Of a stretch of DNA of 64,000 nt, positions 31,345 through 51,886 are shown piece by piece. The stretch spans positions 1-64,000 of the forward strand of contig JAOZKN010000002.1 in the NCBI GenBank assembly GCA_029935315.1, written 5' to 3'. Under the pieces are notes generated by a model, which was not told the origin of the DNA, searched no databases, and was given only the letters and a program-made list of their open reading frames with translations. The first letter of the stretch is position 1. Every line of letters begins with the position of its first letter. The translations under genes and the position numbers were made by a program. The stretch is from Desulfocapsa sp. Its GTDB lineage: Bacteria; Desulfobacterota; Desulfobulbia; Desulfobulbales; Desulfocapsaceae.

Positions 31345-32163
31345 TCAGGCAGGGGGCTTCTGGACATCTGTTTCGGCTGATCCCAGAAGAGTGTCTGCCA
31401 GTCGAATATACTCGATGCTTTGCCACTCATGTCCTAAGAGAGAGGCGCCGTAAGCATCAATGGCCACAGGGTCGGCAGAAGCAATGAGCCGATTCACAGG
31501 TGGGTCGCAGTGTGCCCCCCAGAGATGTGCTTCGGCCATGCCTATGGATGCGTCCAGCAGTGTGAAATCCGGAGTACGGTACCGATTGAGGTCAAAAATA
31601 GCCTCATGGATCTGCTCGTGGAAGGCTGATTTCCTCCAGCCACCGTTTCCCTGGAAATGAGAGGGTGGAGCACAGCCCATCATATTCTTCATACTTATCG
31701 TTACTCCTGCGAGAGTATGGGCTTTCAGCACTGGAACGGATAACAGGAAAACCTCATCCAGAATGACCGGCAGATGCATGGTTGGCCATCGTCTGCAGGC
31801 AGGGTTTACTTTTTTTATTAAAACTTCTTCGTTGAGATCCAGAAGTTTGATCTTCTTCTCTGCGGCAAGTTGTGTATAGCCGAGCATCTGAAAAGGGTGG
31901 TGGGTATTATATTGCAGGGATCCCGTTCCCTCAGCGATGATTATCTCAGTATCTGTAATTCTCTCACGTAAGTACTCTGTAAGGAGTTCGACAAGACTAA
32001 CGGGAGTGGTGATTGGAGGAGCAAGCGCTTCCACCAGGTTCGGTTTGATGAGTATTGTTCTGCCTGTGGGTATGAGATCGGCGAGTGCTGCAGCATCAAG
32101 TACTGAAGAGAGTGCATCTGCAAGGGTTGTTATTGTGGTGCTGTAGAGTTCTTTGCCTTTCAT
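31345..32163 (-). CDS. DUF362 domain-containing protein
   Basis: TILIKPNLVEALAPPITTP; LLSVPVLKAHTLAGVTISMKNMMG. Confidence 0.85.
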   Translation of the reverse strand: MKGKELYSTTITTLADALSSVLDAAALADLIPTGRTILIKPNLVEALAPPITTPVSLVELLTEYLRERITDTEIIIAEGTGSLQYNTHHPFQMLGYTQLAAEKKIKLLDLNEEVLIKKVNPACRRWPTMHLPVILDEVFLLSVPVLKAHTLAGVTISMKNMMGCAPPSHFQGNGGWRKSAFHEQIHEAIFDLNRYRTPDFTLLDASIGMAEAHLWGAHCDPPVNRLIASADPVAIDAYGASLLGHEWQSIEYIRLADTLLGSAETDVQKPPA

Positions 32164-32286: not shown

Positions 32287-33084
32287 ATGAAAATCAATCT
32301 CAGCGTTGATCAGGAAAAATGTATAAAATGTTATTCCTGTATAGCAGAATGTCCCTTTGACCTTATTAATGAGGACAAGGAAGGATTTCCTCAATTACGG
32401 AAGGCGGCACTGAGAAGGTGTATTCGTTGCGGACACTGTATGGCAGTATGTGGTGCTGATGCATTGGATATAACAATTTCCCCACTGGCAAGCAGTGCAC
32501 TGGTGGATAAAAATGTGCTGCCATCCTCACAGGCTGTTGAGCAGTTGCTCAAGAGTCGCAGGTCCATCAGAACCTATAAAAAACGACCTGTGGACCACGC
32601 TGTTCTTGCCAAAATTCTTGATGTAAGCCGTTATGCCCCAAGTGCTCACAATTGTCAGTCCGTGCACTGGGTAATGGTTGAGGATCCTGCGGAAGTACAG
32701 AAACTTGCCGGACTGGTTGTGGAGTATATGCGGGAAATAAAAGTATTCCCCGGTTTGATTCGTGCCTGGGATCAGGGAGTGGATAAGGTGTTACGCGGTG
32801 CTCCCCACCTTGCCATCTGTCACGCAGATCCGGGGAAAAGTGAACATCCCGTTGAGGATTGTACCCTGGCCACAGCCTATCTTGATTTAAGCGCGAACAG
32901 TCATGGCCTGGGCAGTTGCTGGGCCGGATTTCTTGTCCAGGCTTTTAAACTCTATCAGCCCCTGATTGATGCCCTGGCACTTCCCGAGAGCCATACTGTC
33001 TATACGGCCCTGATGCTCGGCTATCCAAAATTCAACTATCGCCATATTCCACAGCGTGATGATGCGAGGGTTACCTGGCGTTAG
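32287..33084 (+). CDS. Nitroreductase-family protein with N-terminal 2x[4Fe-4S] ferredoxin domain
   Basis: CIKCYSCIAECP...CIRCGHCMAVC; RRSIRTYKKRPV. Confidence 0.9.
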   Translation: MKINLSVDQEKCIKCYSCIAECPFDLINEDKEGFPQLRKAALRRCIRCGHCMAVCGADALDITISPLASSALVDKNVLPSSQAVEQLLKSRRSIRTYKKRPVDHAVLAKILDVSRYAPSAHNCQSVHWVMVEDPAEVQKLAGLVVEYMREIKVFPGLIRAWDQGVDKVLRGAPHLAICHADPGKSEHPVEDCTLATAYLDLSANSHGLGSCWAGFLVQAFKLYQPLIDALALPESHTVYTALMLGYPKFNYRHIPQRDDARVTWR

Positions 33085-33712
33085 GTTGCAGGCCCTCAAG
33101 GAGAACAAAACGCCCGAGACTGACAACAGAACAGGGAAAAGAGCCGATAAAAAGCGGGTTGTCACAGAGTCCGCCGGAGAGATAAAGATTTTGTGGACGT
33201 TTGGCAAAGTTGTAGGCATTTATGGCTATGCCTTTGACAAATTTTGCCACAGCCTCGGCTTCACTTTCGCCTGTTATGACCGCATCAAATATATGGCTCA
33301 TGCCCAGGACGCCACAGGTGATGGAAAAAGAAGTCTTGGGGACTTCGAGCTTTGTAAAATCAAGGGTGTAGTATCTTTCAAGAAGCTCTATAGTAAATCC
33401 CATGGAAGCACCACATTCAGCGTTCCAGCCCATATCTTTAATCTTCCCGTCTTCATAAATCACATATTTAATATCGCGGCTTCCACAGTCGAGAAGGGTG
33501 AATGAGGATTCTTGAATTAAACTGAGCCCGCCCCTGGCAAGCGCTGTGAGCTCGTTTACGTATTGCTGGGCATAGCGTTTGCCATTGTGCCCTGTGGCAA
33601 TGTCTACCTGTATGCTGCGATCAAATTCGCGGGTGGGAATCAGGCGGGGAGGTTCTCCTGAACTGGTGTCCAGCAGTTTACAGTAGGATGTGCCAAAATC
33701 AGCGAGCAGCAT
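33071..33712 (-). CDS. BadF/BadG/BcrA/BcrD-type ATPase (2-hydroxyacyl-CoA dehydratase activator-like)
   Basis: ADFGTSYCKLLD; FTLLDCGSRDIKYV; NAECGASMGF...SITCGVLG Cys pair; LYLSGGLCDNP. Confidence 0.8.
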   Translation of the reverse strand: MLLADFGTSYCKLLDTSSGEPPRLIPTREFDRSIQVDIATGHNGKRYAQQYVNELTALARGGLSLIQESSFTLLDCGSRDIKYVIYEDGKIKDMGWNAECGASMGFTIELLERYYTLDFTKLEVPKTSFSITCGVLGMSHIFDAVITGESEAEAVAKFVKGIAINAYNFAKRPQNLYLSGGLCDNPLFIGSFPCSVVSLGRFVLLEGLQPNAR

Positions 33713-33715
33713 GGT

Positions 33716-34459
33716 TTACACTCCGGAGAGTTCGAGAAATGCCTGGATTTTTGCCTTGGCACTGTTGCCAGCCGTGACATCGCAATCAAGATAGAGGCCG
33801 TGGGGATGTCTGGCTGCCAGATGTCTGGCAAGGGCAGTTTTGGCACAGAATGACTGGGCAAAAAAGACCGTGGGAATATCGGGATTATAGTGGCTTTCCA
33901 TGCTCATGTTGTCCGGTGTTTTGTTTTCCATACAACGCGTCCAGCCATAAATATGGGTGGTGTCTGGAAAAAGGCTGAGTAGTGAGAAGTCCCGGGGCGG
34001 AACTCCCCAGAAACCGGCGGTTGCCTGGCAGGGCGTGTGCTCCCGGAGGGGATTTACATCCTGAACAGCAGAGGTGATGGCAGACATTTTCTCCACAAGA
34101 TCCATTCGTGTACGGCAGAGTGAAACACCAAAGTCAGCAGAATCCTGATTTTTACACCGTACAATCTGCGTATCTGGCAGAATATCTTCCAGAACTGTTG
34201 CGGTATGAATTGCGCAGTCACACTTGCCAGGCCCGGTGTCTATGTAGATGATATCCGGTTTGAGTGAGAGGCTGTTGGCGATGACTGTTCTTAAGATTCC
34301 GCAATAGACACGAGGGAGAAAGGGCGAGGCTGATTCAAGATCAATTCTGCCCTGTGGTTCATCAAGGTCAACGATTGTAATTGCTGGATTGTTCAGCTCC
34401 TTCATGACCGCAAGGGGTGGCACACCGACAATGCCAGCCAGTTGCCTGTGTGCTGGCAT
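33716..34459 (-). CDS. Cys-rich protein of uncertain family, possibly 2-hydroxyacyl-CoA dehydratase/double-cubane related
   Basis: ATG at 34459 overlaps the lptG stop (ATGA); 9 Cys in 247 aa; downstream ATPase 3 nt away. Confidence 0.6.
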   Translation of the reverse strand: MPAHRQLAGIVGVPPLAVMKELNNPAITIVDLDEPQGRIDLESASPFLPRVYCGILRTVIANSLSLKPDIIYIDTGPGKCDCAIHTATVLEDILPDTQIVRCKNQDSADFGVSLCRTRMDLVEKMSAITSAVQDVNPLREHTPCQATAGFWGVPPRDFSLLSLFPDTTHIYGWTRCMENKTPDNMSMESHYNPDIPTVFFAQSFCAKTALARHLAARHPHGLYLDCDVTAGNSAKAKIQAFLELSGV

Positions 34460-35547
34460 CAATTGCTGCCCTGTCTGTGGAGGAGCAGAAAGCCGCTGAA
34501 TCCAAAGATGATATGGATAAGCATTGCGGCAATAAGAGGCGAAAGATATCCGGCTTTGGCAAGGGATTGCAGTGCACCCCATAGTCCCCAGGCGACAAAG
34601 GCCATGCCACAGCTCACCGGGATGGCAACGGAAAGATCTTTTCCCCATTTACGATAGGAAATCATGAGTACAGGCAGGCCGAGGAAAAGCAGAGGAATGC
34701 CCAGGAGTGTGTATGAGATGCGACTGTAGAAGTTGGTCTGGGCGAGGGCCGTTTCACTTGCAGTATTCTTGTTGTGCATATCCTGAAACAGCTCTGTGAG
34801 TGAGAGTTCTGCCGATTGATATTTGGGTATGAAAAAGAATTCCGGGCTTTCCGGGAAGGCAAAATTCTGTGTATCAAAGAGGGTGGTCACAAAGCCTTCA
34901 GGTGGGGTGCTTCTTTGAATTTGTCCCTGGCTGAGTTGCCAGCCATCTGCTGCCGTCCATTCGGCTTTCTGGGCGGAGACTTGTGTCTCAAGGGTGTGGT
35001 CAGGAGTCCAGCTGGAATAGGAAAAATCCAAAAAGATATCTTTTTTCGGCCAGGGTCTGGCAAAGGAGAAAAATCCTTCCTTACCTTTGTAGTAGTAACG
35101 TCCGTTTCGGTAAATACCCAGTGGAACCATACCTTTGACATTCTCGTACCAGATGGTGTTGGTTGCCTCAATGGTGCGCGGCAGTACCCATTGCGCCATG
35201 GAAAGAAAGAGCATGGTGAGAAGTATTCCGCCAATCAGGATGGGGTTAATGATGGAACGCAGGTGGATGCCACCAGCCATCATGGCAGTAAGTTCATTGT
35301 TATGGCTCAGTATCCCAAGGCTGATCACTCCCGCAAGCAGGATCAGCACAGGACCCAGCATATCAAGAATAAAAGGGATGGAGAGCAGGAAGAATTGCAG
35401 GGCAAGTCCTATGGTTTTACCAGTGGACATGAATTTATCAATTTTCTCAAAGAAATCGACCAGGATGTAGATTGCTACAAAGGCGGCGGCCACAATTACA
35501 AAGCTGCGGAGGAATTGGAGCAGAATATAGCGGTTAAGAAGGTTCAC
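34459..35547 (-). CDS. lptG: LptF/LptG-family permease
   Basis: YILLQFLRSFVIVAAAFVAIYILVDFFEKIDKFM, typical LptG N-terminus. Confidence 0.9.
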   Translation of the reverse strand: MNLLNRYILLQFLRSFVIVAAAFVAIYILVDFFEKIDKFMSTGKTIGLALQFFLLSIPFILDMLGPVLILLAGVISLGILSHNNELTAMMAGGIHLRSIINPILIGGILLTMLFLSMAQWVLPRTIEATNTIWYENVKGMVPLGIYRNGRYYYKGKEGFFSFARPWPKKDIFLDFSYSSWTPDHTLETQVSAQKAEWTAADGWQLSQGQIQRSTPPEGFVTTLFDTQNFAFPESPEFFFIPKYQSAELSLTELFQDMHNKNTASETALAQTNFYSRISYTLLGIPLLFLGLPVLMISYRKWGKDLSVAIPVSCGMAFVAWGLWGALQSLAKAGYLSPLIAAMLIHIIFGFSGFLLLHRQGSN

Positions 35548-35555
35548 GTGTTGTT

Positions 35556-35936
35556 TTACCAGCGCAGGAATCTATGGCTCAGCATAAAACCAGCTGCAAC
35601 CATAGCTATTCCGAAAAAGTTAGAAACTGCCAGGTAGGTGAATGCCTGAATGTGTTCACCCATTTTAAAGAGCTGAACTGTTTCCCGGGCAAAAGTTGAG
35701 AACGTGGTGAAGCCACCGAGGAAACCGGTAAAGAGAAAAAGGCGGAATTCATTGTTGATATGCATTCTATCAAACAGCGACCAGAAAATCCCAATCATCA
35801 GGCAGCCCAGCAGGTTAGCGAGGAAGGTCCCGGTGGGGAACGAGTGACTGTGATATTCACCAGCGGCCAGAGTGATAAGATATCTTCCCACAGAGCCGAT
35901 TGCTCCACCCAGGGCTATGGCAATAATTTTTTCCAT
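35556..35936 (-). CDS. crcB: Fluoride channel CrcB/FluC
   Basis: GGAIGSVGRYL...GFLGGFTTFSTF. Confidence 0.95.
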   Translation of the reverse strand: MEKIIAIALGGAIGSVGRYLITLAAGEYHSHSFPTGTFLANLLGCLMIGIFWSLFDRMHINNEFRLFLFTGFLGGFTTFSTFARETVQLFKMGEHIQAFTYLAVSNFFGIAMVAAGFMLSHRFLRW

Positions 35937-36034: not shown

Positions 36035-37657
36035 ATGAAAGCTATTGTAATTACAGTGCAGGTGGAGGCTATAGCTCCAGATCTCAGTGACAACACCGCT
36101 GATCTGGATCGTTTGCAACAGGCTCTGGCACGTAAACTTCAGGATGGGCGGTCACTTTCTGTTCCACTCAGGTGTATGACTTCTGTGGCAAGGGCTTTTC
36201 GCGATGCAGGGTTTCGTGGGTATGCCCTGTTGAATAATCTGGAAACCGGATGGGCTGTCGTTGCTTTTTCTGCTGAAGAACCAAGGGTTATCGCAGCCAT
36301 GGCCCTTGATCTTGGCACCACTCACCTTGAGGCAACTCTGGTTAATCTGCGTAACGGAAAAACACTGGCATCCGCAAATCTTGAAAATGCGCAGATTGTG
36401 TATGGTGCCGATATTCTCAGCCGGATACATCATGCTACCGCCAGGCGCAGGCAGCAGAAACCTGTGACTTCTGATTTTCAGGATCCGGGCCTGGATGAAT
36501 TGCAGGATACAATTATTGGTTCAATAAATGGGCTGGCCTGCGAACTGGCAAAGAAAGCAGGCATGGCAGCACATGATATAAGGGCATTATCCGTTTCCGG
36601 CAACACCACCATGACCCACCTGTTTTTAGGTGTTGATCCCTACACGCTCTGCAGAGAACCGTATATCCCCCTTTTTAACAGGGCTCAGGGAATTGAAGCT
36701 TCCCAGTTGCACCTTCGTATCAGTCCAGTGGCTCCTCTTTTTATCATGCCGTCCATTGGAAGCTATTTTGGCGGTGATCTGATTGCCGGAATCCTTGCAT
36801 CGGGAATGGCACATTCTGAGAAAACAAGAATGTTGATTGATGTGGGTACCAATGCTGAGGTAGTACTTGGAAACTCCGAATGGCTTATTGCCTGTGCAGG
36901 TGCTGCCGGTCCTGCTCTGGAAGGAGGCGTTGCCCGTATGGGGATGCGGGCAGGTCCGGGTGCCATTGAATATGTCGCCATTGATCCTGAAAATTATGGT
37001 ATTGATTTTAGAACCATAGGGGGTGTGGCACCCATTGGATTGTGTGGTTCCGGTCTTATTGATCTTGTGGCAGCAATGTACTTAACCCGGATAATAGATA
37101 TTCGCGGGAAGTTCAGAGATCCGGCAGCCGAACAGGATCCCATGCGAAAAGAATTTATGAATCGGCACCTGCTCTCTCGTAATGGAGAAATCTGTTTTGT
37201 ACTGGTCTTTGCAGATGATGGCTCCGGGGAAGATGATGTGGTGCTTGAGCAGATAGATCTTGATGCCATGATTCGTTCAAAGGCTGCCATGTATGCCATT
37301 CTTAGAACCCTGATCAATCAGGTTGGTCTTGACTTCTCGGACCTTGATGAGATTACGGTGGCAGGAGCCTTTGGCCGGCATATTAACCCTCAGTCTGCTA
37401 TAACGCTGGGGATGTTGCCGGATCTGCCACTGTCTGTATATCGTCCAATAGGAAACAGTTCTCTGGCAGGCGCTGAACAGGTGTTACTTGATGAAGATGC
37501 CCGGCAGGAGTGTGAACGAATCGTGTCAAACATCACCTATCTTGAATTGAATGTGAATCAGGAGTTTATGATTCGTTTTTCCGGTGCACGATTTATTCCA
37601 CATACAGATCCGGCCCTGTTTCCGTCGGTCCCTCTTTTTGATTTCAAAAGTGGATAA
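36035..37657 (+). CDS. DUF4445/RACE-type ASKHA protein (reductive activator of corrinoid proteins-like), lacking an N-terminal Fe-S domain
   Basis: ALDLGTTHLEATLV; SVSGNTTMTHLFLG; DVGTNAEVVLG; VAGAFGRHI; no Cys cluster N-terminally. Confidence 0.85.
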   Translation: MKAIVITVQVEAIAPDLSDNTADLDRLQQALARKLQDGRSLSVPLRCMTSVARAFRDAGFRGYALLNNLETGWAVVAFSAEEPRVIAAMALDLGTTHLEATLVNLRNGKTLASANLENAQIVYGADILSRIHHATARRRQQKPVTSDFQDPGLDELQDTIIGSINGLACELAKKAGMAAHDIRALSVSGNTTMTHLFLGVDPYTLCREPYIPLFNRAQGIEASQLHLRISPVAPLFIMPSIGSYFGGDLIAGILASGMAHSEKTRMLIDVGTNAEVVLGNSEWLIACAGAAGPALEGGVARMGMRAGPGAIEYVAIDPENYGIDFRTIGGVAPIGLCGSGLIDLVAAMYLTRIIDIRGKFRDPAAEQDPMRKEFMNRHLLSRNGEICFVLVFADDGSGEDDVVLEQIDLDAMIRSKAAMYAILRTLINQVGLDFSDLDEITVAGAFGRHINPQSAITLGMLPDLPLSVYRPIGNSSLAGAEQVLLDEDARQECERIVSNITYLELNVNQEFMIRFSGARFIPHTDPALFPSVPLFDFKSG

Positions 37658-41582: not shown

Positions 41583-41659
41583 GGTCCCGTAGCTCAGCTG
41601 GATAGAGCGTCTCCCTCCTAAGGAGAAAGTCGTAGGTTCGAATCCTACCGGGATCACCA
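41583..41659 (+). tRNA. tRNA-Arg (anticodon CCU), CCA encoded
   Basis: Cloverleaf: acceptor GGTCCCG/CGGGATC, anticodon loop CTCCTAA, T arm GTAGG-TTCGAAT-CCTAC, CCA at 41657-41659. Confidence 0.96.
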
Positions 41660-51704: not shown

Positions 51705-51886
51705 TTTTCCCTGGCCTGTTGGTGATTCTCAGTGTTGTTGAGCCAACTCTCAAGAAAAGGGTAACCTCTCTGGATCTTTAAGGAAGATCGCTTTGCGAAT
51801 TTCCTGACGGATTTATGGGTCTGCCCACCTATATTAATAGGTTCTACTTTCCTGAGGACACGGCAGGTTGGGGGATTTATTTTTTT
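51705..51886 (+). ncRNA. Structured ncRNA, candidate 6S RNA (ssrS)
   Basis: Noncoding, downstream of zapA; closing helix CCCTGGCCTG (51709-51718) with CAGGTTGGGG (51864-51873), internal hairpins, upstream TATATT -10-like box, downstream T-tract. Confidence 0.55.

Follow-up and report, generated by a model that had tools for sequence, protein, structure and literature searches.

Electron injection driven by ATP, as carried out by HgdC-type proteins, is among the few biological routes to the potentials required for Birch-type chemistry. In BzdN and BzdO, subunits of a class I benzoyl-coenzyme A (CoA) reductase, two alpha/beta domains are joined by a third, helical domain of three helices (about 72-78 residues), which helps to build the CoA channel; the cluster of BzdO is held by Cys95, Cys128, Cys380 and a water, and the double cubane of BzdN by six ligands, Cys36/73/100/263/293/327 (PMC11971306). 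Here we describe a pair of adjacent genes in a window of 64,000 nucleotides from Desulfocapsa sp. (assembly GCA_029935315.1, contig JAOZKN010000002.1, positions 1 to 64,000), of which the first encodes a 247-residue protein, X, and the second a 213-residue ATPase, ACT. Together, X and ACT probably constitute a minimal two-component module for ATP-driven electron transfer or reduction, of the HgdC-HgdB ('archerase') type.

X found no match in Pfam, including PF06050 (HGD-D), nor in the PDB when searched by sequence with either a single query or a profile, and its one match in NCBIfam was negligible (NifU_proper, E 0.085, 12.2 of 273.3 bits). An AlphaFold model of X (pLDDT 87.7, pTM 0.84, 58 aligned homologues) was searched against the PDB with Foldseek. 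The 11 best matches were all HadB/HadC, BzdNO or MbdO (E 2.9e-7 to 1.1e-3, prob 1.00, TMq 0.54-0.63), and the first unrelated protein followed in 12th place (E 5e-3, prob 0.41), which places X in this fold family. According to DSSP, the model comprises two alpha/beta domains of four strands each (6-11, 27-31, 70-74 and 98-102 in domain 1; 148-152, 168-171, 197-202 and 221-226 in domain 2), the layout reported for BzdN and BzdO; they are connected through a single helix plus a short linker (residues 121-147), with no helical middle domain between them. The matched chains have 373-438 residues, in agreement with the suggestion of an initial annotation, made from the sequence of the window, that X is shorter than a full HgdB-type subunit. 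A weak internal repeat relates the halves of X to each other around a GxxGVPP motif (score 22.4, against a maximum of 18.4 after shuffling), as would fit an ancient domain duplication; each half carries this motif and, at similar strand-helix junctions, two cysteines. As modelled, X is the HgdB fold reduced to its two alpha/beta domains. Since the helical domain of the CoA channel is missing from the model, its substrate would therefore not be a CoA thioester, or X would serve a client protein.

X has nine cysteines and ends in AKIQAFLELSGV, both as annotated initially. Four of the cysteines (53, 80, 176 and 205) were invariant in every homologue aligned, even at identities as low as 35-39%, and map in the DSSP string to the strand-helix junctions after strands 2 and 3 of each domain; Cys115 and Cys144 are well conserved yet replaced in some members, and there is no conserved cysteine near the N-terminal ligand position of the double cubane. 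For profile alignments with HGD-D, two X profiles were used, with the window protein at the head of one and a distant member at the head of the other. In these, Cys53 and Cys80 paired with the first and second of the conserved HgdB cysteines and Cys205 with the last, in the correct order, with scores (27.7 and 29.0) above all 60 column-shuffled controls (maximum 26.6); global alignment of X with HGD-D by hhalign was uninformative. Judged from position, and with weak significance, Cys53, Cys80 and Cys205 would correspond to Cys95, Cys128 and Cys380 of BzdO.

ACT had been read as a BadF/HgdC-like ATPase, and its structure prediction bears this out. Its scores were below the cut-offs of both BcrAD_BadFG (PF01869, 21.7 bits, cut-off 31.5) and CoA_E_activ (TIGR00241, 37 bits, cut-off 125.4), and most of its length aligns with HgdC (1hux), HadI (4eht), DCCP-R (7yyl), the reductase of the double-cubane cluster protein DCCP, and MbdP/Q (9gai). 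For the AlphaFold model (pLDDT 92.0), the ten best PDB fold matches were all activases with prob 1.00, DCCP-R ranking first (7yyl_E, TMq 0.79). The segments NAECGASMGF and SITCG are present as previously described, with 32 residues between Cys100 and Cys133. All 70 of 70 homologues keep both cysteines, which align with KCAAGTG and STC of HgdC and are predicted to be cluster ligands; the phosphate motifs DFGTS and DCGSRD are almost fully conserved.

Among 96 related genomes, X was found in 72 and an ACT orthologue in 73. All 72 X-positive genomes contain ACT, and 23 of the 24 X-negative genomes contain no ACT orthologue, the remaining one (G083) having an ACT truncated at a contig end, so that no true exception to co-occurrence was found. 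The pair kept its order and strand in 159 of the 161 X loci fetched, which stem from two overlapping collections and thus count some genomes twice; the other two loci are contig ends, and the median gap is about 9 nt. Because of this constant strand and close spacing, the adjacency is not due to chance. As a unique case, about 3 kb of other genes separate X and ACT in locus L069 (3777-8095) and in L112, apparently the same contig region. Two further families of the phylum, f31 (X identity 51-54%) and f53 (36-39%), also have the intact pair. A Pfam search of the window's genome returned no PF06050 protein, and ACT was the sole match to PF01869; X is therefore the only recognisable acceptor for ACT in this genome.

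Among the named carriers are Desulfocapsa, Desulfofustis glycolicus, Desulfoprunum benzoelyticum, Desulfobulbus, Desulfurivibrio and the cable bacterium Candidatus Electronema aureum. X was detected in 28 of 395 evenly sampled genomes of the phylum, and most of the sampled Desulfobulbales genomes keep one copy of it. Other phyla were covered by a pattern-based scan, whose patterns would miss members as distant as those of f53; the best 80 of its 192 relatives carried Desulfobulbales or broader deltaproteobacterial or proteobacterial names. The search of plasmids for X gave a single match at chance level. A literature search found no paper describing the pair, and BadF, dehydratase and activase all go unmentioned in a paper on the gene repertoire of cable bacteria.

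The reduced-size HgdB-fold protein and HgdC-type ATPase put forward in the initial annotation are upheld by fold, invariant cysteines and co-occurrence. By homology, ACT would probably dimerise around a bridging [4Fe-4S] cluster, to which each subunit contributes Cys100 and Cys133, and would accept one electron from ferredoxin or flavodoxin. Binding and hydrolysis of ATP would then change the conformation of ACT and drive that electron, at very low potential, into X. One [4Fe-4S] cluster is probably held between the domains of X via Cys53, Cys80 and Cys205; Cys176 could be a fourth ligand, with X acting as a relay, or alternatively a redox residue close by, in which case an iron site would stay open for a small substrate. 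X would then either reduce a small substrate other than a CoA thioester or hand the electron to a client protein. We infer cluster content, dimerisation, ATP-gated transfer and client alike, and several points weigh against the module as proposed. Iron-sulfur clusters, ATPase activity and binding between X and ACT go beyond what fold and linkage provide; the fold matches of X have a TM-score of about 0.6 over X, with big gaps and root-mean-square deviations of 6.6-8.7 Å; sequence homology between X and HgdB is weak taken alone (hhalign probability 1-11%), and the HGD-D match of one distant X member stayed below the Pfam cut-off (E 0.21, 11.6 bits, cut-off 28.4); and neither phylogenetic profile nor neighbourhood yielded a client for the pair.

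The features of the locus and of the wider window are given in Table 1. The four minus-strand genes from crcB to ACT nearly abut at the positions annotated initially, with the proposed gaps of 8 nt between crcB and lptG and 3 nt between X and ACT. The overlap between lptG and X likewise exists, but amounts to 1 nt in a TGATG junction and not to a shared ATGA. A longer in-frame open reading frame for X (310 residues, ATG at 34648) overlaps lptG; because the alignments with homologues begin only at about residue 1-9 of the 247-residue form, its start at 34459 is correct or nearly so. A scan of the crcB-lptG-X-ACT operon for promoters and terminators scored no better than shuffled sequences. The ferredoxin-nitroreductase gene overlaps the 3' end of ACT by 14 nt and is found at the equivalent position in other Desulfocapsa loci.

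Table 1. Annotated features in the window, with positions counted from its first nucleotide.
Feature	Position	Strand or orientation	Basis
crcB (fluoride channel)	35556-35936	minus	PF02537, E 1.8e-29
lptG (LptF_LptG permease), GTG start	34459-35547	minus	PF03739, E 3.9e-58
X, 247 aa, predicted reduced-size HgdB-fold protein	33716-34459	minus	AlphaFold and Foldseek
ACT, 213 aa, HgdC/DCCP-R-like ASKHA ATPase	33071-33712	minus	sequence and fold matches
DUF362 protein, downstream neighbour	31345-32163	minus	PF04015, E 1.7e-37
Two-[4Fe-4S] ferredoxin fused to nitroreductase	32287-33084	convergent with ACT	
AcsV/RACo-like corrinoid activator gene	36035-37657	divergent from X-ACT	AcsV profile
6S RNA	51705-51878	plus	69 bits
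tRNA gene	41583-41656	plus	

Upstream of the pair, lptG lies on the same strand in 136 fetched loci and is probably co-transcribed with it, and crcB is tightly linked to lptG in only part of the order. Near the pair in f31 and f53, no match to lptG, crcB, RACo or DUF362 was found. Since the pair is intact there without lptG and crcB, X and ACT form the unit, and lptG and crcB are upstream neighbours outside it. In one locus of f31 (L178, 7833-15471), the pair stands directly upstream of genes read as lysS, lolC, lolD and bamA. A DUF362 gene, found in a minority of loci, is downstream of ACT and co-directional with it in all 28 loci where both were found; its product is a possible accessory and the best remaining local lead to the client. 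No aromatic-degradation genes were noted adjoining the pair. Two candidate links were tried and rejected by phylogenetic profile. CdhC (PF03598), representing the Wood-Ljungdahl pathway and acetyl-CoA synthase (ACS), occurs in 84 of the 96 relatives and does not track X, being absent from three X-positive genomes (G069, G079, G095) and present in many X-negative ones; YedE (PF04143), taken as sulfur transport in sulfur disproportionation, does not track X either.

The AcsV/RACo-like gene, divergently transcribed, lies near the pair in 70 of 110 surveyed loci and matches AcsV from profile position 130 on, hence without the N-terminal ferredoxin part. It is thus conceivable that X is a pure electron relay with no substrate of its own, loaded by ACT and re-reducing a metalloenzyme or corrinoid protein, for instance via this activator; the missing CoA-tail domain of X and the possible fourth ligand Cys176 agree with such a role. 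However, the activator gene is unmatched near X in f31 and f53, CdhC is present in many genomes that have no X, and genomes of genus g29 in family f12 keep the pair but have neither a match to CdhC nor a RACo gene in the fetched locus. We regard a pure relay as unlikely and prefer an ATP-driven module that works, as reductase or relay, outside CoA chemistry.

With DCCP-R as the best fold match of ACT and up to six well-conserved cysteines in X (53, 80, 115, 144, 176, 205), the pair could also be a small version of DCCP/DCCP-R, with X binding a double-cubane [8Fe-9S] cluster. Against this, BzdN uses six ligands and X has no conserved cysteine near the N-terminal one; some members carry other residues in place of Cys115 and Cys144, and the C-terminal domain has lost length between Cys176 and Cys205. 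Given a ligand set that looks incomplete, we rank the double cubane low and consider it quite improbable.

Another view would deny X redox activity altogether, taking its cysteines as structural or zinc-binding and its likeness to HgdB as a shared Rossmann-like topology. Two four-stranded alpha/beta domains are indeed a common theme, and the iron-sulfur content of X is a prediction; Foldseek nevertheless sets the HgdB family (prob 1.00) apart from other alpha/beta proteins, of which the best reached E 5e-3, and X is strictly linked to an HgdC-type ATPase with both cluster cysteines, which makes this view highly improbable.

A cell-envelope role shared with lptG and crcB in lipopolysaccharide export or fluoride handling, at which the initial annotation had hinted, is hardly credible: for all the upstream lptG genes and the lolC, lolD and bamA genes behind the pair in f31, lptG and crcB are neighbours of the pair in the Desulfobulbales only, crcB standing next to lptG in just part of that order, and low-potential electrons have no evident biochemical logic in lipopolysaccharide export.

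An ATP-driven module of X and ACT thus remains the preferred reading. As X matches no family library and lacks a CoA-holding part, its job is probably not yet described. The pair might further represent a functional class new to the ATP-driven HgdC/HgdB superfamily: a minimal reductase independent of CoA, perhaps near the ancestral two-domain core, with a reaction or a metalloenzyme reactivation general to the Desulfobulbales; to this wider proposal we give slightly less than even weight. If true, the job of this class, previously unassigned, would span cable bacteria and sulfur disproportionators, and the pair points to a low-potential reaction, not assigned so far, in sulfur-cycling bacteria of environmental importance. 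The structurally described acceptors matched by X are all subunits of CoA-ester enzymes with about 370-440 residues, and a 247-residue acceptor without the CoA domain would offer a smaller model for the mechanism of ATP-driven electron injection.

Among small iron-sulfur proteins, the TudS/DUF523 family, with TudS reported as a [4Fe-4S] thiouridine desulfidase (PMC10611767), has been described as partly related to the family of benzoyl-CoA reductases and 2-hydroxyacyl-CoA dehydratases (PMC11971306). These desulfidases are absent from the best 50 fold matches of X. To our knowledge, TudS has no ATPase partner. DCCP/DCCP-R (PDB 7yyl) shares with X-ACT the combination of an HgdB-fold acceptor and an HgdC-type ATPase, and DCCP-R is the protein that ACT resembles most in fold; in contrast to DCCP, X is shorter than the matched HgdB-family chains, is devoid of the helical middle domain, and shows four invariant cysteines as opposed to the six double-cubane ligands reported for BzdN. 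The 2-hydroxyacyl-CoA dehydratase HadBC/HgdAB with its activator HadI/HgdC (PDB 3o3n, 3o3m, 4eht, 1hux) resembles the pair in the folds of both components, in the three aligned cysteines conserved in the HgdB family, and in the cluster cysteines and ASKHA motifs kept by ACT, whereas X is a single acceptor gene in place of two subunits, without the CoA-binding helical domain and with a fourth invariant cysteine, Cys176, and ACT has 213 residues compared to about 270 in HadI/HgdC. The class I benzoyl-CoA reductases BzdNOPQ and MbdONPQ (PDB 8s02, 9gai), finally, are matched in fold by X (BzdNO, MbdO) and by ACT (MbdP, MbdQ), but X-ACT consists of two genes only and does without the CoA-binding middle domain.

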